From assembly GCA_958295915.1 (NCBI GenBank), contig OY282381.1, positions 952,722 to 1,016,721 on the forward strand: a stretch of 64,000 nucleotides of DNA. Reading direction: 5' to 3'. The notes under the pieces were generated by a model, which was not told the DNA's origin, did no database searches, and worked only from the letters and a program-made list of their open reading frames with translations. The stretch is from an uncultured Caldilineaceae bacterium. GTDB taxonomy: Bacteria; Chloroflexota; Anaerolineae; Caldilineales; Caldilineaceae. The position numbers and the translations under genes are program-made. Within the stretch, counting starts at the first letter, position 1; each line of letters begins with the position of its first letter. Of the stretch, positions 19,910 through 34,495 are shown piece by piece.

Positions 19910-21430
19910 ATGTACGCCATCGACTTTATCTCTGAATTCAGCGTGAATCCAATCCCCGAACCGGATACAACACTGGCGGCCCTGCTGCGCCAGAGTGAGC
20001 GACACGACACCACGCTCACCCTGACAACATCCCGGCGTGGTCTGGTCAACCAGGTAAACCCCGAAGCCGTGGCAGAGACGCTCGCCGTCACTGCTGAACA
20101 TCCTCGTCTCTTGCCCGTCGGCACTCTCGATCCGCGCTATTTCCTCAACTGGCAGGACGATCTGCAAACCTGTGTCGATGGCGGTTGCGTGGCCATCCGC
20201 TTCTCGCCCGGGCCGCAGAAATGGCATCCGGACATCCTGGTCTTCGAAAAGATGATAGAGGCGGTCGGGGCGGCGGGGCTGCCCATCATCGTTGACTTCA
20301 AGGGGGCAAGCGACGATGGTTTGACCTGGATTCGCAAGGTTGCGGCCGCCACCCACCGTTACGGCGTGCAAGTCGTGATGAACGAGGTCAGCTACGCCAA
20401 CATGGGCGAGTTGATCACCGTAATGCAGGCCTACCCCAATGTCTACGCTGCGATCCGTTGGCTCTGTCTGGCCGATGGCCTCGAAGTTATGGTCGAGGCC
20501 GGCCTGGGCGACCGCTTGCTCTATGGCAGCAACGCGCCCAAGTATTCGATACACGCCCTGCGCAATCAGGTGTTGATGGCCCGGATCTCTGACGAAACCA
20601 AGCAGGCGATCCTCGGAGCCAATGCCCTGCGCCTGCTGGACATGGACATCGAAGATCTGCCGGTGGAACCGCTGCTCATCCAGACAAAGGCAAATTTGCC
20701 CGCTGAACCGATCATCGACATTCACGCCCACGTCTCCGGCTTCCACTGCGCAGAGCCCTACAATACGCGCACCGAAACCAACGTGCCAGAGATGACCGAG
20801 CGTTGCAACATCCAATATACCTTTGTCTCATCTTACAACGCCATCAACTACGACATGCGGGAAGGCAACGCGGACACCCAGGCCTTCCTCGAGCGCTACC
20901 CCAATCTGCGGGGCTATATCTCCTGCGATCCGCGGGACATCCCCGGCTCGGTTGAGCAGATGGAACGCTATTTCCAGGATCCCCGCTTCGTAGGGGTCAA
21001 GCTCTATTGCCCCTTTGGCGGCAATATGGCGACCAAACGCATGCAGGATCTGCTGGACGAAATCGCTCGCTTCGGTCGTCCTGTCAAAATCCACATGGAC
21101 GAAACCGGCTCGCCCTATCCGGGCGTGCGTTCGGCCGCGCTGCGCAACCCCGATTTAGCCATCATCAAGGCCCACGGCGATGATGCGGAGGGCGCGCGCC
21201 AGATCGTTGACCTGCCCAACATATACTTCGAATTTTGCAGCAGCGGCATCCAGGCAGGCCGCATCCGCCGCGCCCTGGACATCTTAGGGCCGGAGCGGAT
21301 TCTCTTTGGCACCGACCAGCCCCTCTTCGCTCCTTGGTTCGAGTACGGGGCCTATATCGACGCCATTCAAACTCAGCGCGAGGCCGACCTGATCTTTCGA
21401 GAGAATGCCAGGCGTATCTTTGCCCTCTGA
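19910..21430 (+). CDS. Fused double amidohydrolase-family protein, N-terminal half lacking metal ligands
   Basis: 506 aa from the ATG at 19910 (AAAAGGAACC upstream). It holds two amidohydrolase (PF04909-type) TIM-barrel halves. The second half (from about residue 265) has all expected ligands: IDIHAHV (H272, H274), VKLYCPF, KIHMDE, IKAHGD and LFGTDQP. The first half keeps the fold pattern and the closing GANALRLLDMD, but starts with AIDFISEF instead of HxH and has YGSNAP where an aspartate is expected. It is therefore likely a structural or regulatory pseudo-enzyme domain. Probable role: hydrolysis or lactone opening of a small sugar-derived acid. Confidence 0.8.
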   Translation: MYAIDFISEFSVNPIPEPDTTLAALLRQSERHDTTLTLTTSRRGLVNQVNPEAVAETLAVTAEHPRLLPVGTLDPRYFLNWQDDLQTCVDGGCVAIRFSPGPQKWHPDILVFEKMIEAVGAAGLPIIVDFKGASDDGLTWIRKVAAATHRYGVQVVMNEVSYANMGELITVMQAYPNVYAAIRWLCLADGLEVMVEAGLGDRLLYGSNAPKYSIHALRNQVLMARISDETKQAILGANALRLLDMDIEDLPVEPLLIQTKANLPAEPIIDIHAHVSGFHCAEPYNTRTETNVPEMTERCNIQYTFVSSYNAINYDMREGNADTQAFLERYPNLRGYISCDPRDIPGSVEQMERYFQDPRFVGVKLYCPFGGNMATKRMQDLLDEIARFGRPVKIHMDETGSPYPGVRSAALRNPDLAIIKAHGDDAEGARQIVDLPNIYFEFCSSGIQAGRIRRALDILGPERILFGTDQPLFAPWFEYGAYIDAIQTQREADLIFRENARRIFAL

Positions 21431-21452
21431 TTCATTTGATCTATCTGATCGA

Positions 21453-21497
21453 CCATGATGGTATCCTGTTCATCATAGCAATCAGGAAAATCAGTGG
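21453..21497 (+). repeat. Dispersed leader repeat, copy 2
   Basis: 45 bp matching 8186-8230 at about 39 positions. It lies 89 bp before the DegT aminotransferase ATG, in the same orientation relative to that gene as copy 1 is to its gene. The remainder of the gap (21498-21585) contains only the ribosome site AAAGGAG. Confidence 0.65.
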
Positions 21498-21585
21498 TCA
21501 GATTGGTAGCAAGTTTATCGAAACGGCCCAGAAGATTCATCGACAGAGTGAATTTCCGGGCCAGCACAGCGAAAGGAGACATCTG

Positions 21586-22818
21586 ATGGCCATAGCAATC
21601 GAACGCAACGCGCCGCCGGTTCGCAGCGGTTCATTTGGACCCCAATGGGATATGGGCGACGAAGAGATCAACGAACTGATCGAGGTGATCCGCGCCGGCA
21701 AATTAGGGCGTTTAGGCGGTTCGAAGGTCGACCAATTTGAGCGCGACTTTGCCGAGATGAACGGCGTCAACTATGCCCAAGCAGTGACATCGGGCACCGC
21801 GGCCGTCCATACGGCCGTAGGGGTCATCGACCCCAATCCCGGCGACGAGATCATCACCACGAGCATCACCGACATGGGCACGATCATCGGCATCCTCTAC
21901 CAGAATGCAATCCCCATCTTTGCCGACATCGATCCCGCTACCGGCAACCTGGACATCCAGGATGTGGAGGCCAAGATCACCGAACGCACCAAAGCGATTC
22001 TCGTAGTCCATCTTTTTGGCAATCCCTGCCCGATGGAGGCGTATGTGGCCCTGGCGCGCAAGTATGACCTCTTTCTGATCGAGGACTGCGCGCAGGCGCA
22101 ACTGGCCGAATACGGCGGACGGCCTGTCGGCGCATGGGGCGATTTCGGCTGCTTCAGTTTTGGCGGCAAACACATGACCACCGGCGACGGCGGTATGGTG
22201 ATCAGCAACCGCGCTGATCTATCCGAACGGTTGAAGTGGTTCGCGGACAAAGGCAATCCCCGCCACCCAATCTACGAGCACTACTATCTGGCCCCCAATT
22301 ACCGTATGACCGACCTGCAAGGCGCAGTTGGCATCGCCCAACTCAGGAAGGTGACCGCTGCCGTACGCCACAAGCAATGGGTCGCCAGCCATCTTAACGA
22401 GGTCATCGACGGCGAGGAAGGCCTCTCTTTGCAGCCCGTCCTGCCAGAAGCCAGACACTCCTACTGGGCCTATGGCTTTCACGTCGATGCCGCGCTGATG
22501 GGCGCGTCGGCAACCCAGTTCGCAGCCGCATTGCAGGCCGAAGGCGTGCCCGCCAACGCGCCCTATATGATCTATCCCGTCTACAAATACCCGGTCATGG
22601 CCCAGCAGCGCGCCTATGGAACGTCCGATTTCTCTTGGGCCGGAGAGGCCGCCACAGCCATCGACTACGGTTCCCTGTCATTACAAGACTCCGAGAAGTT
22701 CCTGGAGACAACGGTCGTGATGCCAATGAATCCTTCCTATACGGAACAGGACGTGGCAGACTTCAGCGCAGCTATCAAGAAGGTCAGCGATTACTACCGC
22801 TCGAAACTGTCGGCCTAG
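21586..22818 (+). CDS. DegT/DnrJ/EryC1/StrS-type PLP aminotransferase
   Basis: 410 aa from the ATG at 21586 with AAAGGAGA upstream; longer readings run through the repeat. Motifs are AVTSGTAAVHTAVG (phosphate binding), LIEDCAQAQLAEYGG, and GCFSFGGKHMTTGDGG with the Schiff-base lysine at about K195. Family members transfer amino groups to keto-sugars or scyllo-inosose. With the Gfo/Idh dehydrogenases nearby, amino-sugar or aminocyclitol conversion is a reasonable inference. A paralogue lies in the minus-strand operon at 43439-44848. Confidence 0.9.
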   Translation: MAIAIERNAPPVRSGSFGPQWDMGDEEINELIEVIRAGKLGRLGGSKVDQFERDFAEMNGVNYAQAVTSGTAAVHTAVGVIDPNPGDEIITTSITDMGTIIGILYQNAIPIFADIDPATGNLDIQDVEAKITERTKAILVVHLFGNPCPMEAYVALARKYDLFLIEDCAQAQLAEYGGRPVGAWGDFGCFSFGGKHMTTGDGGMVISNRADLSERLKWFADKGNPRHPIYEHYYLAPNYRMTDLQGAVGIAQLRKVTAAVRHKQWVASHLNEVIDGEEGLSLQPVLPEARHSYWAYGFHVDAALMGASATQFAAALQAEGVPANAPYMIYPVYKYPVMAQQRAYGTSDFSWAGEAATAIDYGSLSLQDSEKFLETTVVMPMNPSYTEQDVADFSAAIKKVSDYYRSKLSA

Positions 22819-22823
22819 AAACC

Positions 22824-22848
22824 CCAGTGATCAGTGGTCAGTGCAGTT
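22824..22848 (+). repeat. CAGTGATCAGTGGTCAGTG-type junction repeat
   Basis: A short element of the CAGTGGTCAGTG family fills the gap between the DegT aminotransferase stop and the next start. Relatives are at 29984-30019, 42551-42573, 42620-42645, 43441-43480 and 44866-44886, all at gene junctions. It leaves the next gene without a visible Shine-Dalgarno sequence. Confidence 0.6.
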
Positions 22849-22854
22849 AAAAAA

Positions 22855-23622
22855 ATGTCTACTCAATTCACATTCCGCCCACGCGTTCCCGTATTCGATG
22901 CCAATGTTCGGGTAGGCGATCTACACTATGAACCGTCAGCGTGCCGCAATCGCGAACAACTGTTGGCCGAGATGGACCGGCACGAAATCGAAAAGGCTCT
23001 GATCTACCACGCGCATACGGAAGAGCTGAGCCCAGTCGACGGCAACCTTTTCCTGGAAGAGTGGCTGGGAGACGAAGGCCGTCTTTTTCCCCAATGGTCG
23101 ATCATGCCCACAGCCGAATCCATGGCGCAGGTACAGAGGCTGCACGATCAGGGACGTGTGCGCAACGTTCGCCTGCACGATACGCGCGGCGCCGGGCTGC
23201 CCTTCCGCGCCTGGGCCTACGGACCCATGCTCACCTGGCTGAGTGAAAAGCGGATTCCACTCTGGATCCCCGTGCCCGATGCGGATGCCGACGAGCTGGC
23301 TACAACGCTCCAGGCTTACCCTGATCTCGTTACAGTCCTGGTCGGCGCCCACTACCTGCACGCCCTGTTGGTCCGCCCGCTCCTTACCGCGTTGCCCAAC
23401 ACCTATCTGGAGCTGAGCCGCTTCGAGCCGCTAGGCGAAGTGGAAGCGCTTTGCTCCGAGTATGGGTCCGAACGATTCGTATACGGCTCCTGGTATGACC
23501 GCTATGCCATGGGCCCGATGCTCTTCTACCTCCATCACACGGAGCTCAACGATACGGATCTGGCTCTGATCTGCGCCGGAAATCTGTTGCGTATTCTACA
23601 GGGAGAGGGCCAGCATGATTGA
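22855..23622 (+). CDS. Amidohydrolase-like TIM-barrel protein with degenerate metal site
   Basis: 255 aa from the ATG at 22855; an in-frame GTG at 22834 lies inside the junction repeat. The fold pattern follows PF04909 proteins and ends with DTDLALICAGNLLRIL, but the first-strand HxH is replaced by VFDANVRVG and the late aspartate region reads VYGSWYDRY. It overlaps the next, apparently intact amidohydrolase gene by 8 bp, so the two are probably translated together. It may act as a non-catalytic partner or bind a substrate without metal. Confidence 0.7.
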   Translation: MSTQFTFRPRVPVFDANVRVGDLHYEPSACRNREQLLAEMDRHEIEKALIYHAHTEELSPVDGNLFLEEWLGDEGRLFPQWSIMPTAESMAQVQRLHDQGRVRNVRLHDTRGAGLPFRAWAYGPMLTWLSEKRIPLWIPVPDADADELATTLQAYPDLVTVLVGAHYLHALLVRPLLTALPNTYLELSRFEPLGEVEALCSEYGSERFVYGSWYDRYAMGPMLFYLHHTELNDTDLALICAGNLLRILQGEGQHD

Positions 23623-24364
23623 AGAGCAGAGGATCATCGACTTCCACGGCCATACGGGGCGCCAGGATCGGTACAACTGGAACGACGACCCCACGGCGAT
23701 ACTGCATGCCATGGACAAGGCAGGGATCGACATCGCCTGTCTATTCAACATCTTCCATCCCGACGGAACCACCGGCAACGATATAACGGCGCGTTTTGTG
23801 GCCGCGCATCCAGACCGCTTTGTTGGTTTCGCTTACGTCTCGCCGACCATGCCAGAGCGCATGGTTCCCGAACTGACCCGCGCCATCGACGAGCTCAATC
23901 TCGTCGCCATCAAGCTCTACCCACCCTATACCCAATGGGATCTGCACGAACCGATCTGGCATCCGATCTATGAATTCGCCAATGCGCGCGGGCTGGCGGT
24001 CATCTTCCACACAGGCGCCGACCCACATTCCCACCCCAGCCTCCTGGCCGCCTGCGCGGCTCAGTTTCCCAAAGCGAATTTCGTCGCCGGCCACGCCGGC
24101 AACATCGCCGAACCGCGGCGAGCGGCCATTCAGGTGGCCCAGACCTATCCCAATGTCTATCTGGAGACCTGCTCGACCTTTCGCACGCCCGGCGTTATTG
24201 AGAAGCTGGTGAACGAAGCCGGCCCAGACCGGGTTCTATTTGGCTCCGATATCTCCCTGATGGATCCCCGCCCACAGCTGGGAAAGATCATCACCGCGCA
24301 CATCTCAGAGGAAGCGAAAAGAATGGTCTGCGGCGCAAACGCTGCCCGGCTGTTGGGAATCTGA
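23615..24364 (+). CDS. Amidohydrolase (PF04909-type metal-dependent hydrolase)
   Basis: 249 aa. Metal-site motifs are present: IDFHGHTG (H11, H13), AIKLYPPY, VIFHTGAD, FVAGHAGN and LFGSDISL. The end ANAARLLGI is typical. Family members hydrolyse lactones, decarboxylate or hydrate small carboxylates. The start overlaps the preceding degenerate homologue by 8 bp (GGGAGAGG just upstream). It is the last plus-strand catabolic gene before the methyltransferase insertion. Confidence 0.85.
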   Translation: MIEEQRIIDFHGHTGRQDRYNWNDDPTAILHAMDKAGIDIACLFNIFHPDGTTGNDITARFVAAHPDRFVGFAYVSPTMPERMVPELTRAIDELNLVAIKLYPPYTQWDLHEPIWHPIYEFANARGLAVIFHTGADPHSHPSLLAACAAQFPKANFVAGHAGNIAEPRRAAIQVAQTYPNVYLETCSTFRTPGVIEKLVNEAGPDRVLFGSDISLMDPRPQLGKIITAHISEEAKRMVCGANAARLLGI

Positions 24365-24477
24365 CTGCTGTAAAGACCGACCAGGATCTGTATGATTTCT
24401 GTGATAGACAAGAGTACGTCCTCGCGCCATGGCATCCTTGCCTTAAAAAGTTTGATATCCCGCAGAAATCAACGCCA

Positions 24478-24502
24478 GGACGCAGAGACGCGGAGACGCA
24501 AA
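24478..24502 (+). repeat. GACGCAGAGACGCGGAGACGCAAAG-type dispersed repeat
   Basis: Purine-rich repeat related to 13183-13233 and repeated at 27319-27333. It marks the left border of the duplicated methyltransferase unit. The upstream part of this gap (24365-24477) contains no recognisable gene. Confidence 0.55.
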
Positions 24503-24573
24503 GAGAACTGCGGTGATCGATCGCTGGAAACAGGGGGCGGTTCCTGATATCGACGCGAGAGCACGAACACACG

Positions 24574-27294
24574 TTGAACGTCTGGCTGGCCTCGCATCTG
24601 CGAAAGTACGGCCTGAACGCCAGGCAGGAATCGACGCAACCCGGCAATCGCCGCCTTGATGTGGAGGTGCGCATCGGCCCGCTGGTGATCGCCGTGGAGG
24701 CGGAGCATGGTCAAAGCCGCGCCAAGCAGACAGCCGCCATCCGCGATGCCGACGCCCGCCTGCGACAGGGGCTGGCCCAATGCGCGGTCGCCGTCTGCTA
24801 CCCCGATAACACCACCGAGGAATCCCTGCCGGCGGCCAATCTGCTCTGGACAGTGCGCGACCCGGCCGCGCCAACGCCGGCGGCCGCCGACTGGAGCGCT
24901 GGCGACCTCGATCAGCTGGCCTCGGTGCTGCGGCTCACGCCGGCGCAACTGGGCGACCCCGACTCGGCCGCAGCCGCGCTGTCCAGCAGCCTGGATGGGG
25001 CCGTCGCGCGGCTCAGCGAGAGCCAGAAGCGGGAGCTGGCGAAAGCGTTGGACCTGCCGGAAAGCTCCAAGGCGAGCAAGGGCAATCTCCTGGATACCGC
25101 GGCCAAGCGCGCCCTGCTGGTCATCGCCACCGCGGTCATGTTCCATGCGCGCCTGGACAACCATCGGCAGGAGCTGCGCCCCGAATATGACAACCGCACT
25201 GTCCCGCCCCAGCCTTTTCAGGACGACTGGCCGCCGGCCATGGCCCAGCAGTGCGCCGCGTCTCCCGACCCCATCGCCGCGTTCGGCGATGCCTGGAACC
25301 TGATCCTGGCGCTGGATTACAAGCCCATTTTTGAAACGGCCGCCGCAGCCCTCTCCGCCTGCCCCCAGAACCCGGCCTATACAGCCGCCGTTCGGGATAC
25401 AGCCCGCGCGGCCCTGGTCATCGTCCGCAACATCGCCGGTTTGCGCCACGACCTATTGGGCCGCATCTTTCACACCGTGCTGGATACCGCCCGCTACGAC
25501 GGCTCTTTCTACACCACCACGCCAGCGGCTACCTTGCTGGCCACGCTGGCCATCCACGAAACCATGTGCGACTGGCAAGACCCCGAAGCCATCGCCCGCC
25601 TGCGGATTATCGACCCAGCCTGCGGCACGGGCACGCTGCTCATGGCGGCGGCGGAACGAATCCGCGACCTGGCCCCGCAGTCCCAGGACGATGAGACAGT
25701 AGCGGCCGGCCTGATCGAACAGGTGCTCAGCGGCTACGATGTCAACCTGACCGCCACCCACATGGCAGCGACCACATTGGGCCTGCTGTCGCCCACAACC
25801 CTGTTTCGGAACATGAAGATCGGCCGCGCCTTTCTGGGCGTGGATCACCTGGGCGAAGCCTACCTCGGTTCGCTGGAATTTCTGGAGCGGCAGCCCTGGC
25901 TCATCCCCTGGCCCAAAGCCATCCAGGCCGTATCCCAGATAGACAGTGGCGAGCAGATAACCGAGGCGGAGCCGGCCGACCTGGTGATTATGAACCCGCC
26001 CTATACCCGCGACAGCCTGCGCCACGATCAGTTCACCCGCGCGGGGGAACGCAAAATCAAGGCGCGGGAGAAGGCGCTGTTCGCCAACAAGCCGGTCCAT
26101 CTGTCCAGCAACGGCAACGCATTTCTGGCGCTGGCAGACCATATCAACAAAGCCGATACGGGCGCCATAGCGGCCGTACTGCCGCTGGTCACGGCAACCA
26201 ACGCATCATCTCGCGCGATGCGCAAACATCTGGCAAGTCGCTATCACATTGAGACCATCGTAACGTCCCATGACCCGCAGCGCATCTACTTTTCCGAAAA
26301 CACCAGCATCGGCGAAATGCTGCTGATATGCCGACGCTGGCCAGCGAACAAAGGCCCGAAACCGCCGACGCGAGTGGTCAATCTGGCGCTGAATCCGGCG
26401 TCACCGGCCGCCGCGATCTCCACCGCCTGGGCTATCACAAATGGCACTGTAGCGACCCAAGGATATGGAACCGTGCAACAATGGCCGGCAGGGAAAATTG
26501 CGGCCGGCGATTGGGGCGCTGCGCAGTTCCTCTCGCCCTATTTGTGCGAAAAATTTACCCAGTTGAGAGACGGTGAACTTTTCCAGGCGGTTGCGTTGGG
26601 CAGCATTGCAGACATCGGGCCAGCCGGCCAAGGGATACGGGGTACTTTTACCCGATCTACTATGCCCGACGAACAGGGCCGCATTGCGCTGTGGCAGCAT
26701 GACACCGCGCGAACGCAATCAATGGCCGCCAAAACGGATACGCACATCGTCGCCAAACCAAAAAAAGCGCATCTGGCGGAACAATATTGGCAACAGCGCA
26801 GCTCTTTGCTTTTGCCAGCGCGAATGCGGCTCAACACCGTCAGGATAGTAACTGTTAGGCTGGACACGCCGGCAGTAGGTTCAGCGTGGGTTCCTTGTCG
26901 CCTTACTGTATCGGAGGCACTATTAGCGGATTGGGAGAAAGCCGTATGCGTCTATCTGAATTCGTCGGTCGGCATACTGTCCATCTTGGGCGACCGTTCG
27001 AATAAGACGCCCTCTTATCCGAGCATATCAATAGACGATATGCGCAAACTGACGGCGCCGGACTTGGCCGCCATCGGCGGGGATGCGGCGGCGCAGTTAG
27101 CGGCGGCCTACGATGCCCATGCCGGGGATATACTGCTGCCCCTGCCGCAGATGAACGACTGCCCCATTCGCCGCGCCCTGGATGATGCCGTCATCACGGC
27201 GCTGGATCTGGATAGGGAGATGGTAGCCACCCTCCGCCGCAGCCTGGCCGCAGAGCCATCAGTAACCGGCCGGCGCTATGCTGGGACGATTTGA
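24574..27294 (+). CDS. N6-adenine DNA methyltransferase with N-terminal nuclease-like domain, copy 1
   Basis: About 906 aa; the start is uncertain. TTG at 24574 is used, but in-frame codons back to 24517 (reading ISTREHEHT) may be coding, with only CTG or ATA as alternatives and no ribosome site. Residues 1-100 (RRLDVEVRIG ... VIAVEAEHGQSRAKQTA) look like a PD-(D/E)XK-type nuclease core. Motif FYTTTPAATLL is followed by the AdoMet motif IIDPACGTGTLL (about 346-357) and catalytic NPPY (about 474-477). The C-terminal part would hold target recognition. This resembles type IIG/BREX-like stand-alone restriction-modification enzymes. No separate restriction gene is nearby. Confidence 0.85.
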   Translation: MNVWLASHLRKYGLNARQESTQPGNRRLDVEVRIGPLVIAVEAEHGQSRAKQTAAIRDADARLRQGLAQCAVAVCYPDNTTEESLPAANLLWTVRDPAAPTPAAADWSAGDLDQLASVLRLTPAQLGDPDSAAAALSSSLDGAVARLSESQKRELAKALDLPESSKASKGNLLDTAAKRALLVIATAVMFHARLDNHRQELRPEYDNRTVPPQPFQDDWPPAMAQQCAASPDPIAAFGDAWNLILALDYKPIFETAAAALSACPQNPAYTAAVRDTARAALVIVRNIAGLRHDLLGRIFHTVLDTARYDGSFYTTTPAATLLATLAIHETMCDWQDPEAIARLRIIDPACGTGTLLMAAAERIRDLAPQSQDDETVAAGLIEQVLSGYDVNLTATHMAATTLGLLSPTTLFRNMKIGRAFLGVDHLGEAYLGSLEFLERQPWLIPWPKAIQAVSQIDSGEQITEAEPADLVIMNPPYTRDSLRHDQFTRAGERKIKAREKALFANKPVHLSSNGNAFLALADHINKADTGAIAAVLPLVTATNASSRAMRKHLASRYHIETIVTSHDPQRIYFSENTSIGEMLLICRRWPANKGPKPPTRVVNLALNPASPAAAISTAWAITNGTVATQGYGTVQQWPAGKIAAGDWGAAQFLSPYLCEKFTQLRDGELFQAVALGSIADIGPAGQGIRGTFTRSTMPDEQGRIALWQHDTARTQSMAAKTDTHIVAKPKKAHLAEQYWQQRSSLLLPARMRLNTVRIVTVRLDTPAVGSAWVPCRLTVSEALLADWEKAVCVYLNSSVGILSILGDRSNKTPSYPSISIDDMRKLTAPDLAAIGGDAAAQLAAAYDAHAGDILLPLPQMNDCPIRRALDDAVITALDLDREMVATLRRSLAAEPSVTGRRYAGTI

Positions 27295-27403
27295 AAGAAA
27301 CGCGATGTCGCCCAGCAGCGCGGAGACGCAAAGAGAACTGCGGTGATCGATCGATAGAAACAGGGGGCGGTTCCTGATATCGACGCGAGAGCACGAACAC
27401 ACG

Positions 27404-29974
27404 TTGAACGTCTGGCTGGCCTCGCATCTGCGAAAGTACGGCCTGAACGCCAGGCAGGAATCGACGCAACCCGGCAATCGCCGCCTTGATGTGGAGGTGC
27501 GCATCGGCCCGCTGGTGATTGACGTGGAGACGGAGCATGGCCAAAGCCGCGCCAAGCGGACAGCCGCCGACTGGAGCAGCGGCGACGTGGAGCAGTTGGC
27601 CTCGGTACTGCGGCTCACGCCGGCGCAACTGGGCGACCCCGACGCGGCCGCCGCCGCGCTGTCCAGCAGCCTGGATGGGGCCGTCGCGCGGCTCAGCGAG
27701 AGCCAGAAGCGGGAGCTGGCGAAAGCGTTGGACCTGCCGGAAAGCGCCAAGGCGAGCAAGGGCAATCTCCTGGATACCGCGGCCAAGCGCGCCCTGCTGG
27801 TCATCGCCACCGCGGTGATGTTCCATGCGCGCCTGGACAACCATCGGCAGGAGCTGCGCCCCGAATATGACAACCGCACTGTCCCGCCCCAGCCTTTTCA
27901 GGACGACTGGCCGCCGGCCATGGCCCAGCAGTGCGCCGCGTCTCCCGACCCCATCGCCGCGTTCGGCGATGCCTGGAACCTGATCCTGGCGCTGGATTAC
28001 AAGCCCATTTTTGAAACGGCCGCCGCAGCCCTCTCCGCCTGCCCCCAGAACCCGGCCTATACAGCTGCCGTTCGGGATACGGCCCGCGCGGCCCTGGCCA
28101 TCGTCCGCAACATCGCCGGTTTGCGCCACGACCTATTGGGCCGCATCTTTCACACCGTGCTGGATACCGCCCGCTACGACGGCTCTTTCTACACCACCAC
28201 GCCAGCGGCTACCTTGCTGGCCACGCTGGCCATCCACGAAACCATGTGCGACTGGCAAGACCCCGAAGCCATCGCCCGCCTGCGGATTATCGACCCGGCC
28301 TGCGGCACAGGCACGCTGCTCATGGCGGCGGCGGAACGAATCCGCGACCTGGCCCCGCAGTCCCAGGACGATGAGACAGTGGCGGCCGGCCTGATCGAAC
28401 AGGTGCTCAGCGGCTACGATGTCAACCTGACCGCCACCCACATGGCAGCGACCACATTGGGCCTGCTGTCGCCCACAACCCTGTTTCGGAACATGAAAAT
28501 CGGCCGCGCCTTTCTGGGCGTGGATCACCTGGGCGAAGCCTACCTCGGTTCGCTGGAGTTTCTGGAGCGGCAGCCCTGGCTCATCCCCTGGCCCAAAGCC
28601 ATCCAGGCCGTATCCCAGATAGACAGCGGCGAGCGGATAACCGAAGCGGAGCCGGCCGACCTGGTGATTATGAACCCGCCCTATACCCGCGACAGCCTGC
28701 GCCACGATCAGTTCACCCGCGCGGAGGAACGCAAAATCAAGGCGCGGGAGAAGGCGCTGTTCGCCAACAAGCCGGTCCATCTGTCCCATAATGGCGGCCC
28801 TTTTCTTTATCTCGCCGATTTTCTGACCAAAAGCGACGCTGGGACGGTAGCAGTCATTTTGCCATTGGTAGGCGCAACCAACTATTCAACCATGGACATG
28901 CGCAAATTTCTGGCGCAGCGATTCCATATCGAGACCATCGTAACTTCTCACGACCCGCAGCGCATCTACTTTTCCGAAAACACCAGCATCGGCGAAATGC
29001 TGCTGATATGCCGACGCTGGCCGGCGGACAAAGGCCCGAAACCGCCGACGCGAGTGGCCAATCTGGCGCTGAATCCGGCGTCACCGGCCGCTGCAATCAC
29101 CACTGCCTGGGCTATCATAAATGGCACTGTAGCGACCCAAGGATATGGAACCGTGCAACACTGGCCGGCAGGGAAAATTGCGGCCGGCGATTGGGGCGCT
29201 GTGCAGTTTCTTTCGCCCTATTTGTGCGAAAAATTTACCCAGTTGAGAGACGGCGAATTTTTCCGGTCGGTTGCGTTGGGCAGCATTGCAGACATCGGGC
29301 CAGCCGGACAAGGGATACGGGGTACTTTTACCCGATCTACTATGCCCGACGAACAGGGCCGCGTTGCGCTGTGGCAGCATGACACGAAACGAACGCAATC
29401 AATGGCCGCCAAAGCGGATACGCACCTCAGCGCAAAGCCGGCGAAAGCGCATCTGGCGGAAAAGTATTGGCAACAGCGCGGCTCTTTGCTTTTGCCACAT
29501 CGCTTGTTCCTGCCAACCGCTCGAGTCGCGACTGTTCGATTGAACACGCCGGCGTTGGGGTCATTGTGGACACCTTGCCGCCTTACTGTGTCGCAAAATT
29601 GCCTACCAGAATTGGAAAAGGCTCTGTGCGTCTATTTCAATTCGTCGGTAGGGATATTGGCAATCTTGGGAGACCGTACTAACAAAAAGCCTACTTATCC
29701 CCAATTCTCACTGGACGACTTACGCAAACTGGCGACGCCGGACTTTGCCGCCATCGGCGGGGATGCGGCGGCGCAGTTAGCGGCCGCCTACGATGCCCAC
29801 GCCGGGAATATACTGCTGCCCCTGCCGCAAATGAACGACTGCCCCATTCGCCGCGCCCTGGATGATGCCGTCATCGCGGCGCTGGATCTGGATAGGGAGA
29901 TGATGGCCACCCTCCGCCGCAGCCTGGCCGCAGAGCCATCAGTAACCGGCCGGCGCTATGCTGGGACGATTTGA
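27404..29974 (+). CDS. N6-adenine DNA methyltransferase, tandem copy 2 with shortened N-terminal domain
   Basis: About 856 aa from the TTG at 27404, in the same context as copy 1. It keeps the first nuclease-like strand pair (VIDVETEHGQSRAKR) but lacks 50 residues that follow in copy 1, so nuclease activity is doubtful. DPACGTG and NPPY motifs are intact and identical to copy 1. The segment just after NPPY (HLSHNGGPFLYLADFLTKSD versus HLSSNGNAFLALADHINKAD in copy 1) and a C-terminal segment (LLLPHRLFLPTARVATVRLN) differ strongly from copy 1. It may be a modification-only partner or an alternative-specificity allele. Confidence 0.85.
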   Translation: MNVWLASHLRKYGLNARQESTQPGNRRLDVEVRIGPLVIDVETEHGQSRAKRTAADWSSGDVEQLASVLRLTPAQLGDPDAAAAALSSSLDGAVARLSESQKRELAKALDLPESAKASKGNLLDTAAKRALLVIATAVMFHARLDNHRQELRPEYDNRTVPPQPFQDDWPPAMAQQCAASPDPIAAFGDAWNLILALDYKPIFETAAAALSACPQNPAYTAAVRDTARAALAIVRNIAGLRHDLLGRIFHTVLDTARYDGSFYTTTPAATLLATLAIHETMCDWQDPEAIARLRIIDPACGTGTLLMAAAERIRDLAPQSQDDETVAAGLIEQVLSGYDVNLTATHMAATTLGLLSPTTLFRNMKIGRAFLGVDHLGEAYLGSLEFLERQPWLIPWPKAIQAVSQIDSGERITEAEPADLVIMNPPYTRDSLRHDQFTRAEERKIKAREKALFANKPVHLSHNGGPFLYLADFLTKSDAGTVAVILPLVGATNYSTMDMRKFLAQRFHIETIVTSHDPQRIYFSENTSIGEMLLICRRWPADKGPKPPTRVANLALNPASPAAAITTAWAIINGTVATQGYGTVQHWPAGKIAAGDWGAVQFLSPYLCEKFTQLRDGEFFRSVALGSIADIGPAGQGIRGTFTRSTMPDEQGRVALWQHDTKRTQSMAAKADTHLSAKPAKAHLAEKYWQQRGSLLLPHRLFLPTARVATVRLNTPALGSLWTPCRLTVSQNCLPELEKALCVYFNSSVGILAILGDRTNKKPTYPQFSLDDLRKLATPDFAAIGGDAAAQLAAAYDAHAGNILLPLPQMNDCPIRRALDDAVIAALDLDREMMATLRRSLAAEPSVTGRRYAGTI

Positions 29975-29983
29975 AAGAAACGC

Positions 29984-30011
29984 CAGTGGCCAGAGCCGTT
30001 TCTGGCCACTG
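29984..30011 (+). repeat. Perfect 11-bp inverted repeat after the methyltransferases
   Basis: CAGTGGCCAGA (29984-29994) pairs with TCTGGCCACTG (30001-30011) around a 6-nt loop, followed by ACCACTGA of the junction repeat family. There is no T-run, so it is a weak terminator at best. Confidence 0.6.
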
Positions 30012-30042
30012 ACCACTGAAGATGCCAATGGGAGATCAGACC

Positions 30043-31050
30043 ATGGACTACAGCGAATCCGATCGTGAAATTTGGGAAGAGGAACTGTCGGACTTTGTCC
30101 CTCAACGGGTGTTTGATGCCCACTGCCATCTGTTCGATCCGGCGCACATGCGGCCTGACGCGCCGCCGACGCCACGATCGTACGCTGATCTGGCGACGCT
30201 GAAGGAGTGGGGCCGTCTTATGTTCCCCGGCCGCCGCATGAACTTCCTTCTTCTGGGCCTGCCCAAAATCGGCATCGATGTGGAGAAACATACCGCCATG
30301 CTTGCCGAACAAGTGGCTCTGGATCCCGGTTCACGGGCCAATCGACTGGTCACCCCTTCCTGTAACGCGTCTCGCATCGAGGAGGATATCCAGCGCGCCG
30401 GATTTATCGGCTTGAAACCCTACCGGATCTTTTCCTCGACCGGAGATACAGACTACTGCCGCATTCACGAGTTTCTGACCCACGAACAGATGGAACTCGC
30501 CAACGACCGTGGGCTTTGGGTCACAATGCACCTTTCGCGGCCTGATGGCTGTGCCGATGGCGATAATCTGGCCGACCTGGAAGAATACACGACTCGTCGT
30601 TATCCCCGTATCAAATGGATCCTCGCCCATTGCGCTCGCAGCTTTACCTATTGGCCCATTCGCGAGGCGGTCGAGCGTCTGCGCGACATGCCTAATATCT
30701 GGTACGATCTGTCCGCCGTAACAACCATGTCCCCGTTCCTGACCTTGTTCCGTAAGGAAGACCTGAAACGGATCTTTTACGGCTCCGACGGTGTCGACTC
30801 AGCCTTCTTTCACGGCAAGTACGTCCCATTCGGAAAATACTGGTACCAGGTGGCGCCCAATGCGTCTCAGTTCAGCTTCGCGCACACAGACGCGCGGCCG
30901 ATCTTATGCGTTTACGAACAGATTATGGCCATGAAACAGGCCGCGGACATCGCAGGCCTGTCCAAAGATGATGTCGAAGGGATATTCTGGCGCAACGCCC
31001 ACGAAGCGCTCGCGATCGAAACCGCGGACGAAAACGCGGCCGCCCTGTAA
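30043..31050 (+). CDS. Amidohydrolase (PF04909-type metal-dependent hydrolase)
   Basis: 335 aa from the ATG at 30043, which has GGGAG 8 nt upstream; ATGs at 30022 and 30028 are in frame but lack a site. Metal-binding motifs are FDAHCHLFD (H27, H29), IGLKPYRIF, VTMHLSRPDG, WILAHCARSF and FYGSDGVDSA. It is longer than the 249-aa relative at 23615 and not its close paralogue. The C-terminus (SKDDVEGIFWRNAHEAL) is standard. It would catalyse hydrolysis or decarboxylation of a small acid or lactone; substrate unknown. Confidence 0.85.
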   Translation: MDYSESDREIWEEELSDFVPQRVFDAHCHLFDPAHMRPDAPPTPRSYADLATLKEWGRLMFPGRRMNFLLLGLPKIGIDVEKHTAMLAEQVALDPGSRANRLVTPSCNASRIEEDIQRAGFIGLKPYRIFSSTGDTDYCRIHEFLTHEQMELANDRGLWVTMHLSRPDGCADGDNLADLEEYTTRRYPRIKWILAHCARSFTYWPIREAVERLRDMPNIWYDLSAVTTMSPFLTLFRKEDLKRIFYGSDGVDSAFFHGKYVPFGKYWYQVAPNASQFSFAHTDARPILCVYEQIMAMKQAADIAGLSKDDVEGIFWRNAHEALAIETADENAAAL

Positions 31051-31154
31051 TCGCAGATGCGGTTCACTTTTCCGCGCCTTACGCACGATTCACACTTATG
31101 ATAAAATGATGAAGCCATCCGCCTCTGCAGATAACATGAACAGGAAAAAAGCCC

Positions 31155-32672
31155 ATGAACCGCGCGCCAGAACGTCCAAAGTTGAGTCCAACGCCCGGCC
31201 CGACCATAGCGGAGATGGAGGCGGGGCTGAAACAATGGGCGGCTGCCCGGCCCGAAACCATGCAGGTGGAGATAGTTGGCCGCTCACCCGGCGGCCTGCC
31301 GCTGCTGTTGTGTCGCATTAGCGACGCCACTGTAACCGATGAGGACAAACAGGTGGCGTTATTCACCACTACACACAGCGGCGTGGAGAGGGTCACGACC
31401 GCCGGCCTGCTCCAACTCATCAAATGGCTCATCAGCGACGACGCTGAGGCGCAGGAAATTCGCCGGCGCCAAATTGTCCTCGTCATGCCAGCCTGCGAGC
31501 CAGAAAGCTATGATCGGAAGTTGATAGACGTCGCCGAGTTTTTCGCCGGCCGCAGCCGCTGGGTCTATGAAGGCTGGACGTGGGACGGGCCCCAGGATCC
31601 CCCCAATCAGCCAGAGGCGATGGCCGTCAAACAGGTGGTGGATCAGTATCGACCGGAGGTCCATCAAGACGTTCACGGCATATGGTTTGAACAGGCCACC
31701 ATGACGGAAAGCACCGGCATCTCCTGGGCTTCGAACCTGTACCGCGGATATTGGCGCGCGATCCCTGATTTAATGAACCAGGCGGCGGAAGAAGCTGGCT
31801 ATTTGACAACCCGGGGCGAAGAAAGCGCCGGACAGATACTATCTACTGTACCCGTGCCAGGCGTCGAACGCTGGTTCTACGGCAGCGCATCGACGCCCAA
31901 GGTTGTTTGTGGCCTCTATTCCTATTACCAGTATCATAGCATTGCGCAGACGATGGAGGTCGGTTGGGAGGAGAGCGTTGTCCTACGCTTGCGTCGGTTG
32001 CTCCAGATCGGCAATCAGGTGTGGCGAGGAGAGCCCTACCCCGGCTACCCAGCCAACCAGGTTAGCTGCCGGTCGTCGGTAGCAATCGCCGCCTGGGGCA
32101 AGACCGCCGCCCAACGGCGGGCTAGTCGGGTCGAGCTATGGCGCAAACTGCCCCAGCTCTCCCACACCTGTGGCTGGCCCGAGGCCCGCGACGGCATCGT
32201 CGCCCTTGTCTCCACCACGCCAGAAAGCCGGAACCAGTACGCGCCAGGGCAGGCAACGACCGCGCCAAATCTGAACGAACCGAATCTGGAGCCGATGTTT
32301 GCCCGACTCAAACAGAACCCCCGCTTTGACGGCGATGCCTTGGATGAATTTCTCAGTATGTCCGTTTCACGCCAGGTATCTTGGCCGCAGGTGGAATACG
32401 AAGGCCCGGCAGAACCGATTCAGAACGGCCTCGCCATCCGCCTGCGGCTGCCCCACCCTGATGTGTCATTCAAGCGCCTCAAACTGGATGGTCATACGAT
32501 GGAGCCATCAGACCTTGACGGCTACTTTGTGTACCACAATCCAGGCTCCATCGTTCAGATCAATATTCCGCCAGGCAAGGTCGAGGACTTCCACGTGGTG
32601 ACCGCTGTATTCGATTCGACCGCGAAGCGGATCTCCGGCTTCCACCCTCAAGACTGGTCATTGGAAGAATAA
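31155..32672 (+). CDS. M14-like carboxypeptidase (cytoplasmic), unusual zinc motif
   Basis: 505 aa, no signal peptide. The M14 pattern is visible: VEIVGRSPGGLPLLLCRI, then ALFTTTHSGVERVTTAG (H74) as the first zinc region and EVHQDVHGIWFE (H170/H174) as the third. The first motif reads HSGVE (HxxxE) instead of HxxE. The C-terminal 100 residues (LRLPHPDVSFKRLKLDG ... VQINIPPG) are shared with the protein at 36572. These M14 paralogues flank the third importer, suggesting trimming of imported peptides or amide-linked conjugates. The upstream gap (31051-31154) holds nothing clear. Confidence 0.75.
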   Translation: MNRAPERPKLSPTPGPTIAEMEAGLKQWAAARPETMQVEIVGRSPGGLPLLLCRISDATVTDEDKQVALFTTTHSGVERVTTAGLLQLIKWLISDDAEAQEIRRRQIVLVMPACEPESYDRKLIDVAEFFAGRSRWVYEGWTWDGPQDPPNQPEAMAVKQVVDQYRPEVHQDVHGIWFEQATMTESTGISWASNLYRGYWRAIPDLMNQAAEEAGYLTTRGEESAGQILSTVPVPGVERWFYGSASTPKVVCGLYSYYQYHSIAQTMEVGWEESVVLRLRRLLQIGNQVWRGEPYPGYPANQVSCRSSVAIAAWGKTAAQRRASRVELWRKLPQLSHTCGWPEARDGIVALVSTTPESRNQYAPGQATTAPNLNEPNLEPMFARLKQNPRFDGDALDEFLSMSVSRQVSWPQVEYEGPAEPIQNGLAIRLRLPHPDVSFKRLKLDGHTMEPSDLDGYFVYHNPGSIVQINIPPGKVEDFHVVTAVFDSTAKRISGFHPQDWSLEE

Positions 32673-32839
32673 AACCCGGGACACAGGGAGGTGTCAGGCC
32701 GGCAAGATGTTTGCGTGGTGAATCGTGTTCCGGGCCCAGCCAGCCTGCACTCTATACGGTTCGTTTCACCAACACAAGTATGTGATAACATCGGGAGATC
32801 CTTCAATAAGCATGCATAGTCATGGGAGAGATATCTAAG

Positions 32840-34495
32840 ATGAAACCCTATCCTTTAGCCATACTCTTTGTTGTTGTAGGCATATTGTTTGCAGCCTGCG
32901 TCGCGCCGATGCCGACCGCCAGTGAATCGGGGGCGGCGAGCGCCGAGGGGGAGGTTGAAGCGGAACCTGCTGTCGAGCAAGTAGTTCGCTACGGCATGAT
33001 TCAAAGCATGAAGACCTTTGACCCAGCCCGGGAAGGCGGCTTTGGCCGCTTCATCATGCAACATGTGTGGCTGCCGCCATTCATTGCCGACCCCGAGGCG
33101 AACCTGACACCGGGGTCGTGCACGTCGTTCGATGTTAGCGACGACGGGACTACCTACACATTACATGTGAATCCTGAAGTCAAATGGTCAGATGGAAGTC
33201 AATTCACCGCTCACGATATCAAAGCCTGGTTCGAGTATGTGGTAAACCCTGAGAACCCAGCAGGCTGGGTTCCACCGAACTATGGCGGCATCGTAGGATA
33301 TGACGCAGTGCGCGACGGAGAAACCACCGAGTTGGCGGGTCTGGTGGTCGTGGACGAATTTACATTGCAGATCAATCTGAAAGAAGCCGATCCCCTGTTC
33401 ACATTCAAAGTGCTCGCCAACTATAACTCAGCCACAGCCAAGGCCGAACAGGCTTGGGCAGATCTGAATGGCGAATGGTGGACCAATGATCCGCTGGTCA
33501 ATGGCCCTTATACCATCGAATCATGGGACGATGACGTGATGCACTATGTCTATGTGCCCAACCCGAACTACTGGGGCGAAAATAAGGCAACCATACGGAT
33601 CGAAGTGACATCGGTGCTTGCCGAAGAAACGCTCAGTGTCATGTATGAGAATGACCAGTTTGACATCGTCATTTTCACAGGCGCGGCAGGAGATGCGCTG
33701 TCTCTAAAGTATCCCGATGACGTCGTGCCGATGAACTACAAGTACAGCAACATCTGGGGTTTCAATCCAAACCTGCCTCCTATGGACGACCCGCTAGTGC
33801 GACGGGCGCTGATTCATGCCATAGATCACGAACGCATTGTGCAGGTCATATACGGAGACACCAAGGATCCCGCCGCTGGCCCCGTCTATCCGGGCTTGTC
33901 CGGATATCGCGCCAATATATTCGACATGGCCGGGGCGCTTCAGTATGATCCCGAACTGGCAAAGCAGGAGCTGGCCCAATCCACCTATGGTTCAGCCGAA
34001 AACCTGCCCAAACTCAATCTTGCTCTGGGGACACCGGACGCTGAGTGGGTGCGCGGCATGGAGATGATCCTGGAGATGTGGCGAGACACGCTGGGTATTA
34101 CCAATGTCGAAACCAAACCATGGTGGAATGATTGGGCACGAGGCGATGCAAGGGCGGACGTCGTCCACATGGGAGGCTTCGGCTGGGGTACTTTGCCCGA
34201 CCCAGGACATGCCGTGTGGCGAGCCGCTTACACCGGCAACGCCATGAGCAGAATCAGATACAGCAACCCCGAGGTGGACGCGCTTCTTGACGAGGCTCTG
34301 TCTCTCAGTCGCGATAATCCTCGATTCCTTGAGTTGGTCCAGCAGGCGGAACAGCTGTACCTGGAAGACTATGTCTGGAAGCCATTCTTCGTGGTGTCAT
34401 ATGCTTGGCATGCGAAGCCTTGGGTCCAAGGCCTGCAGGGTACCTGGTACAATAACTGGTACAACATTGAAGAGGTAACCGTGGCAGACCACTAG
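32840..34495 (+). CDS. Solute-binding lipoprotein, family 5 (third importer)
   Basis: 551 aa from the ATG at 32840 with GGGAGAG upstream; an ATG at 32822 would add six residues. Signal peptide with lipobox FAAC, then an Ala/Glu linker shorter than in the other binding proteins. SBP_bac_5 domain with VNGPYTIESWD, VPNPNYWGENKATIRIEV and LVRRALIHAIDHERI. It is related to the proteins at 2535/4315 (LAKQELAQSTYGSAENLPK). A strong hairpin follows the stop before the permease gene. The 167-bp gap before it has only a long-loop imperfect inverted repeat near 32673-32740. Confidence 0.92.
   Translation: MKPYPLAILFVVVGILFAACVAPMPTASESGAASAEGEVEAEPAVEQVVRYGMIQSMKTFDPAREGGFGRFIMQHVWLPPFIADPEANLTPGSCTSFDVSDDGTTYTLHVNPEVKWSDGSQFTAHDIKAWFEYVVNPENPAGWVPPNYGGIVGYDAVRDGETTELAGLVVVDEFTLQINLKEADPLFTFKVLANYNSATAKAEQAWADLNGEWWTNDPLVNGPYTIESWDDDVMHYVYVPNPNYWGENKATIRIEVTSVLAEETLSVMYENDQFDIVIFTGAAGDALSLKYPDDVVPMNYKYSNIWGFNPNLPPMDDPLVRRALIHAIDHERIVQVIYGDTKDPAAGPVYPGLSGYRANIFDMAGALQYDPELAKQELAQSTYGSAENLPKLNLALGTPDAEWVRGMEMILEMWRDTLGITNVETKPWWNDWARGDARADVVHMGGFGWGTLPDPGHAVWRAAYTGNAMSRIRYSNPEVDALLDEALSLSRDNPRFLELVQQAEQLYLEDYVWKPFFVVSYAWHAKPWVQGLQGTWYNNWYNIEEVTVADH

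Follow-up and report, generated by a model that had tools for sequence, protein, structure and literature searches.

It has long been asked how a restriction-modification enzyme can acquire a new target without being lethal to its host, and a pair of genes in an uncultured Caldilineaceae bacterium (Chloroflexota; GCA_958295915.1) bears on this question. The window analyzed here is a 64,000-nucleotide stretch of contig OY282381.1 (positions 952,722 to 1,016,721, forward strand), to which positions refer unless stated otherwise. It carries two related genes, "copy A" and "copy B," arranged head to tail on the + strand, and a third allele, "copy C," is present elsewhere on the same contig. We suggest, with a probability of roughly 0.7, that A, B, and C are Type IIG/IIL-like restriction-modification enzymes in which two modules, independent of the protein backbone, likely set the DNA sequence recognized. 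In the best supported model, no partner gene would be required and specificity would evolve by swapping the two recognition modules. If so, bacteria would alter the recognition of their DNA defense by exchanging short modules.

The first line of evidence is the mosaic structure of the copies. Within the duplicated unit, which starts at 24489 and again at 27319, 55 to 60 positions are identical in each 60-column bin, except at a deletion in B and in two patches (Table 1). Patch 1, directly after the catalytic NPPY motif, has bins of 34, 37, and 48 identical positions of 60, and patch 2, in the C-terminal half, has bins of 36 to 52. Outside the patches the A-B synonymous divergence (dS) is 0.033 (residues 131-290), 0.042 (291-513), and 0.121 (567-722), whereas patch 1 reaches 1.70 and patch 2 0.88; over the short segment 111-130 (20 codons) it is 0.30 (segment labels follow A and, beyond residue ~210, equal the numbering of homologue P0001 plus 3). 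Both the binned alignment and the dS contrast bear out what an earlier, sequence-only reading of this locus had described, i.e., near-identical copies with two sharply bounded patches, and they exclude a uniform divergence along the genes. The ratio of nonsynonymous to synonymous divergence (dN/dS) is 0.21 in patch 1 and 0.21-0.25 in the patches. Hence, the A and B versions of patch 1 both seem to be under constraint, and the patches would represent old, constrained alternatives imported as blocks rather than the outcome of rapid mutation in place. Their raised synonymous divergence argues for import over targeted mutation, as by a diversity-generating retroelement.

The third allele adds to this picture. 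The host genome is one contig of 5.06 Mb, and C (contig positions 4149437-4152142, - strand; whole open reading frame [ORF] 911 amino acids, GTG start) is 90% identical to A. Patch 1 is the same in A and C and differs in B; around residues 116-125, B and C agree and A differs; over residues ~143-273, A and B agree while C is at 57-90% identity per bin (A-C dS 0.52 over residues 131-290). The differences between A and C in patch 2 are mostly confined to two short stretches, ~26822-26884 (32 of 60 in the bin) and 27005-27035, because only "code 2" (see below) differs between them, and 112 of the 120 bases in between are identical. The odd-one-out pattern of the three alleles forms 85 runs, compared with a mean of 223 (minimum 190) in 2000 shuffles.

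What the patches do is suggested by their distribution among homologues. Scoring of 7998 candidates in a protein search gave 2027 proteins at E <= 1e-3; the best 120 of these, mostly 890-930 amino acids long, were used. Patch 1 is of type H in 46 rows, type S in 44, and other in 30, with a typing threshold set by us. The search for further alleles that the sequence-only reading had proposed yielded both allele C and the same patch types in the 120 homologues. Types H and S are separated by the patch-1 residues 516, 523, 544, 548, and 550, and by residues 775 and 813, which are located 225-297 residues downstream. Residue 775 is L in 40/46 H rows and A in 42/44 S rows, and residue 813 is T in 41/46 and S in 43/44, respectively. 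Patch 1 is thus coupled to these two C-terminal residues, and we refer to the combination as "code 1." Across phylogenetically independent pairs, type H is accompanied by L775 in a mean of 17.2 of 20 and opposed to it in 0 (median p 1.5e-5); for T813 the mean is 17.3 of 21.

A second code lies within patch 2. Here, R756 together with N758, a residue other than K at 816, and S/A818 alternates with F/Y/N756, K816, and T818, and all 120 rows are consistent with this scheme. R756 and K816 are opposed in 27/27 independent pairs (p 1.5e-8). Moreover, the two codes vary independently of each other: H and R756 are unassociated in independent pairs (median p 0.51, range 0.039-1), and all combinations are common (HK 28, SK 23, SR 21, HR 18). 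Among 43 more distant loci, R756 without K816 was found in 29, K816 without R756 in 11, neither in 3, and both in 0; read by eye from a table, residues 775/813 are L/T in 5/8 H-like rows and A/S in 5/6 S-like rows. Copy A is S/R (S, R756, A775, S813, T816), B is H/K (H, F756, L775, T813, K816), and C is S/K, so that three of the four combinations reside in one genome. The sharp bounds of the patches hold, but the patches do not form one unit: patch 2 holds positions of two independent codes, one of them coupled to patch 1.

The patches also behave as modules relative to the backbone. In 40-residue windows over 116 of the 120 rows (P0002, P0006, P0018, and P0065 were left out, being two window copies and two truncated rows), the window-to-backbone distance correlation is 0.30-0.48 across ~501-600 and 721-860 vs 0.57-0.84 elsewhere, and that between patch 1 and patch 2 is 0.36. 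The backbones of P0063 and P0084 are 2.2% apart, with a patch 1 that is 38% different and an identical patch 2; for P0070 and P0082 (2.6% apart), it is patch 2 that differs (47%) and patch 1 that is identical. Label changes on the backbone tree were counted by a quick method. The H/S label, which covers 90 rows, changes 27 times vs 30.3 (23-38) after shuffling, while four-class labels of control segments outside the tree change 6 times vs 53 (residues 1-55) and 3 times vs 31 (55-110). These results show that the patch segments are distributed independently of backbone phylogeny, with some signal remaining for two of the labels (see below), as in the exchange of target recognition domains (TRDs; "domain movement"). 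No inverted repeat of >=40 nt is present in 20000-34000, and the locus thus differs from phase-variable inversion of specificity (S) genes. Apart from A, B (in two pieces), and C, the genome search listed a single, distant methyltransferase match. A silent cassette store was therefore not found in it, and exchange would take place between whole alleles or with other cells. Of the earlier idea of a store of segments for recombination, the exchange by recombination is supported, while no such store was found in this genome.

The class assignment is based on a structure model from a 63-row alignment with a predicted local distance difference test score (pLDDT) of 85.8; an earlier model from 40 close rows was weak (pLDDT 67). 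The predicted layout comprises an N-terminal PD-(D/E)XK-like domain with an alpha-beta-beta-beta-alpha-beta core, a helical spacer, a gamma-class N6-adenine methyltransferase, a recognition domain, and C-terminal helices. The succession of nuclease, spacer, methyltransferase, and recognition domain in one predicted polypeptide is that of Type IIG/IIL enzymes. A and B match PF02384 (N-6 DNA methylase; E 8.3e-9 and 9e-8), with sub-cut-off matches to Eco57I- and MmeI-type methylases and weak matches to the PADLOC Type I, II, and IIG methyltransferase models. Together, the model and PF02384 support the earlier proposal of an N6-adenine-type methyltransferase with an N-terminal nuclease-like domain. 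The putative nuclease residue D36 is present in 119/120 rows (one gap), and E49 and E51 in 120/120. No separate restriction (R), modification (M), or S gene seems needed: no constant neighbor (toxin, AAA, helicase) was found at 94 loci with a simple ORF picker, the largest neighbor cluster occurring in 15, which agrees with the absence of an R or S gene beside the copies noted earlier. Other classes fit less well. The scores for the MmeI family PF20473 are 17.1 bits (A) and 17.3 bits (B) vs a cut-off of 27, no helicase family as in Type ISP enzymes is matched at E <= 1 in A or B, and the PglX models of bacteriophage exclusion (BREX) give <=20.5 bits vs cut-offs of 400-900.

Known enzymes, as described in the excerpts of the literature used here, indicate how the two modules might act. 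In LlaGI/LlaBIII (Type ISP), methyltransferase-domain and recognition-domain loops read the target jointly, as suggested here; Loop II (1053-1062) of the methyltransferase domain contacts bases +4 to +6, partly via the minor groove, position 1056 is occupied by S or N, and the presence of N at 1056 and 1058 correlates with certain base steps (PMC4872093). In the present family, residue 516 follows the catalytic N478 at a distance of 38 residues, equal by spacing, not alignment, to N1018-1056 in LlaGI/LlaBIII, and S and H rows carry S, G, H, or N at this residue. By analogy, patch 1 may read DNA. The long relative L110 (1,473 amino acids), like the Type ISP enzymes, carries Mrr_cat_2, ResIII, and N6_Mtase (Pfam), unlike A and B, which lack a helicase match. 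Similarly, a methyltransferase-domain loop of BrxX reads the sixth base pair and differs between species (PMC11842806), and two catalytic-domain loops of CamA face the DNA (PMC8187626). A and B are unlike BREX, however, in that the PglX models stay far below cut-off; no BREX partner was noticed among neighboring ORFs, although no ORF-by-ORF search for BREX was made.

The Type IIL enzymes MmeI and DrdV are similar in domain order and sizes (MmeI, 919 amino acids: 1-155, 156-300, 301-620, 621-825, 826-919), and alternative residues alter the base that is read (PMC4833311). In MmeI, the fourth base pair is read by the recognition-domain residues 774 and 810, Lys489 of the methyltransferase domain makes a nonspecific minor-groove contact at this base pair, and A774L, which narrows R to G, resembles the A/L775 alternative that is coupled to patch 1 here (PMC4833311). 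Residues of the MmeI family covary with the base recognized (PMC4833311). This covariation is described, in the part of the account available, within the recognition domain, whereas in the present family the recognition state travels with a separate methyltransferase-domain patch; A and B also lie below the MmeI_Mtase Pfam cut-off.

The TaqII/TaqIII twins of Thermus aquaticus (Type IIC/IIG) are paralogous single-chain enzymes of one genome with different motifs and the domain order nuclease, helical, methyltransferase, recognition. They are 93.4% identical and differ mainly in the putative recognition domain, as A and B differ in the patches (PMC5587805). Twin IIC enzymes with different targets are hence known, but TaqII/TaqIII are longer (~1,100 amino acids), and the excerpted account does not describe a nuclease-broken tandem copy or an independently exchanged methyltransferase-domain patch (PMC5587805). 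Exchange of TRDs is known for Type I and III and Type IIG S subunits, and in Helicobacter pylori the recognition segments of Type I, III, and IIG S genes recombine between genes and lineages, altering specificity (PMC3077401, PMC3983042). There, as far as excerpted, the unit exchanged is either an S subunit of its own or the TRD of a Type III Mod, whereas here two modules reside in one restriction-modification chain, and the module beside the catalytic motif is a feature of the A/B/C family unlike these TRD systems (PMC3077401, PMC3983042). In the open-access literature, as sampled in excerpts, no account was found of the present family, of the coupling that constitutes code 1, or of a single-chain enzyme with two independently exchanged modules.

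Several observations weigh against this assignment. Some phylogenetic signal is kept by the seven-type patch-1 label (46 changes vs 59.1 shuffled, 51-66) and by the R/K label (30 vs 40.4, 32-47). Code 1 is imperfect, as the counts for residues 775 and 813 given above show, and one H-like row, L065, has A/S at 775/813. The recognition domain has no sequence-level relative in the PDB, and residues 756, 775, 813, and 816 are therefore placed on MmeI or LlaGI contacts by spacing, not alignment; in the structure search, absence of a fold from the matches listed is not evidence of its absence. Mapping of a long relative to LlaGI matched only the nuclease-helicase part, not the methyltransferase part. 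For the nuclease-like domain, Pfam matches are sub-threshold only, in 2/7 pieces scanned and none in A (PDDEXK_9 in L093, E 2.6e-4; MTES_1575 and Mrr_cat in L124), and there is no significant PDB sequence match (best E 0.22). Moreover, A, B, and C all have E instead of K at position 51 of the PD-(D/E)XK-like motif; in the wider alignment A2 this position is E in 52/63 rows and K in 11/63, and the BamHI-like ExE motif is a precedent for E in place of K. Finally, neither A nor B has an ATG, GTG, or TTG ahead of the conserved EHEHTLNV of the family, and both may therefore be weakly translated or initiated in a nonstandard manner.

In the mechanism that we propose, the target would be chosen jointly by the segment beside the catalytic motif and the recognition domain, and homologous recombination through the near-identical flanks would swap one module at a time. 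Cutting and marking would share one recognition domain in one chain and change together, and an allele would therefore stay self-consistent after a change. A and C are predicted to cut unmodified DNA and to methylate self sites. The family seems to offer a large natural data set for target change, in which a single chain combines two separable modules with discrete states and near-perfect residue covariation. The codes predict up to three motifs in one host genome with features shared pairwise and, if true, would give exchangeable positions for specificity engineering, some of them beside the catalytic motif.

The role of B is less clear-cut. Its deletion is exactly 150 bp, in frame, and placed between shared GCCGCC, in agreement with the sequence-only reading. 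It takes away the greater part of helix B together with strands 77-83 and 97-102 of the model, nearly half of the nuclease-like domain, and B would therefore only methylate and is predicted to be unable to cut. Loss in this region is not unique to B, as P0107 has 28 gaps within 61-110, but the 50-residue loss is. B would probably methylate at its own, different motif. One scenario is that B acts as a pre-methylating donor: nuclease-dead and carrying the alternative modules, it would already mark their sites in the chromosome, and gene conversion into A would switch cutting without a lethal unprotected window. We regard this as speculative and rather unlikely. Were it true, two independent codes with at least two states each would constitute a small combinatorial specificity switch in a single-chain restriction enzyme, and the nuclease-broken tandem copy does raise the idea of a self-protecting switch.

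A serious competitor, given somewhat less than even odds, is that the tandem is a transient duplication in which B decays without a role and the patches are a by-product of ordinary recombination. The short repeats that flank the deletion and two residues found in B alone, D at 47 (A in the other 119/120 rows) and T at 50 (106 A, 12 C, 1 S), are in keeping with decay. The same holds for the low A-B dS outside the patches (mostly 0.03-0.12), which indicates a young pair, and for the site being empty in 11/16 same-genus relatives, those in which both flanking genes were found. On the other hand, the methyltransferase and recognition reading frame and motifs of B are intact and its patch-1 difference is constrained, although this is compatible with decay that has just begun. 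This account of the tandem is also compatible with the module model for the patches, so the two confidences are not exclusive. The stricter idea, in which B acts as a methylase that shares the target of A and protects its sites, draws on the retained methyltransferase and the reduced nuclease-like domain of B. However, A and B differ in both inferred codes, hence B would not protect the sites of A, and a Type IIG enzyme such as A would protect itself. We consider it improbable. Of the corresponding earlier proposal, the division into a copy that cuts and modifies and one that only modifies remains plausible, but probably at different motifs.

The patches might instead be exchanged under selection other than DNA choice, e.g., escape from phage DNA-mimic inhibitors or packing of the interface between methyltransferase and recognition domain. 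The coupling of patch 1 to residues 775 and 813, >200 residues away, is what a packing interface would give, and the complex of Ocr with BrxX shows that such enzymes are targets of phage inhibitors (PMC11842806). However, the patches occur in a small number of discrete states, code 2 follows a strict R/K alternation as is typical of base-reading residues, the LlaGI/LlaBIII loop at the same spacing contacts bases (PMC4872093), and residues of the MmeI family covary with the recognized base (PMC4833311). Hence, we find this explanation unlikely. That an assembly artefact merged the alleles of two strains would fit two nearly identical neighboring genes, but it is hardly credible given a single 5.06 Mb contig, a duplication junction with its own sequence (~27304-27319), a third mosaic allele at another locus, and patch types that segregate among the 120 independent homologues.

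Table 1 Coordinates of the features discussed in the text (positions in the window).
Feature	Position	Strand	Remarks
Copy A, predicted single-chain Type IIG-like enzyme	24544..27294 including CTG (24574-27294 from TTG)	+	906 amino acids from TTG 24574
Copy B, tandem paralogue of A	27374..29974 including CTG (27404-29974 from TTG)	+	856 amino acids from TTG 27404
GCGGAGACGCAAAGAG, left end of duplicated unit	24490..24505	+	
Nuclease-like motif of A, D36...E49-A-E51	24658..24705	+	D codon 24658-24660; E codons 24697-24699, 24703-24705
150 bp of A absent from B, in frame	~24739..24888	+	P0001 residues 61-110
Catalytic NPPY motif, A	25993..26004	+	sequence
Patch 1 in A, type S	26107..26250	+	code 1 residues 516/519/523/544/548/550
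Patch 2 in A (recognition domain)	26704..27060	+	alignment, homologue comparison
Code 2 codons in patch 2 of A	R756 26827-26829; T816 27007-27009; S818 27013-27015	+	
Code 1 partner codons in patch 2 of A	A775 26884-26886; S813 26998-27000	+	
Patch 1 in B, type H	28787..28930	+	alignment, homologue comparison
Patch 2 in B (F756, L775, T813, K816, T818)	29384..29740	+	
Insertion between two amidohydrolase genes (23615-24364 and 30022-31050)	24365..30021		same-genus comparison

The left end of the duplicated unit, GCGGAGACGCAAAGAG, has its only second match in the window (<=3 mismatches allowed) at 27320-27335, i.e., at the A/B junction. An in-frame CTG is located 10 codons upstream of the TTG in both copies (at 24544 in A and 27374 in B, the intervals being 24544-24573 and 27374-27403), near the position where homologues have an ATG or GTG start. 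Starting at 24544 would restore the family N terminus ISTREHEHTLNV... in A, and the match of A to P0001 begins at residue 2. Hence, CTG may serve as the start codon in A and B.

The tandem had been read as an insertion into a catabolic locus, and this receives support from the flanking amidohydrolase genes. Of 16 same-genus relatives searched, the second of these genes fell below threshold in 5; in the other 11/11, the two matches are 8-96 bp apart, compared with 5.66 kb here, and the A/B tandem is therefore an insertion. The empty site is based on match coordinates, and the sequence reading covered the loci other than L141, L142, L145, and L146 (4/11, opposite orientation). Copy C, unlike the A/B tandem, sits in a defence-like neighborhood, with candidate defence genes for a SIR2-type PDC-S65 (E 3.5e-199) and for PDC-M02A/B, a pair (E 1.9e-56, 4.0e-100), a context that speaks for the proposed restriction-modification role. 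In L006:5560-9819 (G000:C1 ~4145059-4149318), beside C, PDC-S65 is accompanied by a transposase-like ORF and PDC-M02A/B. C is preceded by ORFs that by eye resemble a lysine/arginine biosynthesis operon.

Of 396 genomes of the class that were searched, 10 had a match at E <= 1e-60, and three of these 10 (G000, G001, and G009) belong to the genus. Two matches were listed only for the present genome, G000, and for G342 (two partial genes); since at most two candidates were scored per genome, these are minimum copy numbers. Tandem copies as a general family trait were considered and set aside, as a second close neighboring pair was not among the matches listed (100 relatives, <=9 scored each). In putative same-genome paralogue pairs of three other genomes, at least one code differs in 3/3; the putative pair P0009/P0016 has the same code 2, and P0045/P0074 differs along its whole length. 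A contig scan gave 223 relatives (80 kept), by record title from Chloroflexota, Acidimicrobiia, Gammaproteobacteria, Acidobacteriota, Latescibacterota, and others. Judging from assembly names, many of these assemblies presumably come from marine sponges. Among the loci listed, neighbors are conserved within groups of loci. Carriage by phages or plasmids was also discarded: of 11 phage records, the 10 listed are haloarchaeal viruses (42% cover, ~25% identity; 9/10 annotated Type IIG), and the best match of 4 plasmid records has 27.5% identity over 85%.

Variation within the family extends beyond the patches. Long relatives (~1,455-1,708 amino acids) comprise L104, L107, L110-L112, L116, L117, L119, L120, L122, L123, L125, and L045; in both that were scanned with Pfam, L110 and L045, an Mrr_cat_2 nuclease and a ResIII helicase precede the related methyltransferase, a Type ISP-like arrangement. 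At four loci (L109:7992-10759, L115:1851-4690, L043:1460-4335, and L063:7965-10747), two overlapping ORFs encode the nuclease-like domain and the methyltransferase separately. In some lineages the nuclease part may thus be a subunit that can be separated; alternatively, these may be frameshifts. P0014 and P0017 carry a 25-residue tandem duplication within the recognition domain, and L091:7971-10832 has a long RE dipeptide repeat in a loop of this domain, at the position where the family varies most, possibly a length-variable contingency repeat or an assembly error. Two distant relatives, L038:8575-10844 and L039:273-2542, are adjoined by genes that by eye encode an AAA ATPase and a DUF4435-like protein, a neighborhood that we take to recall PARIS.

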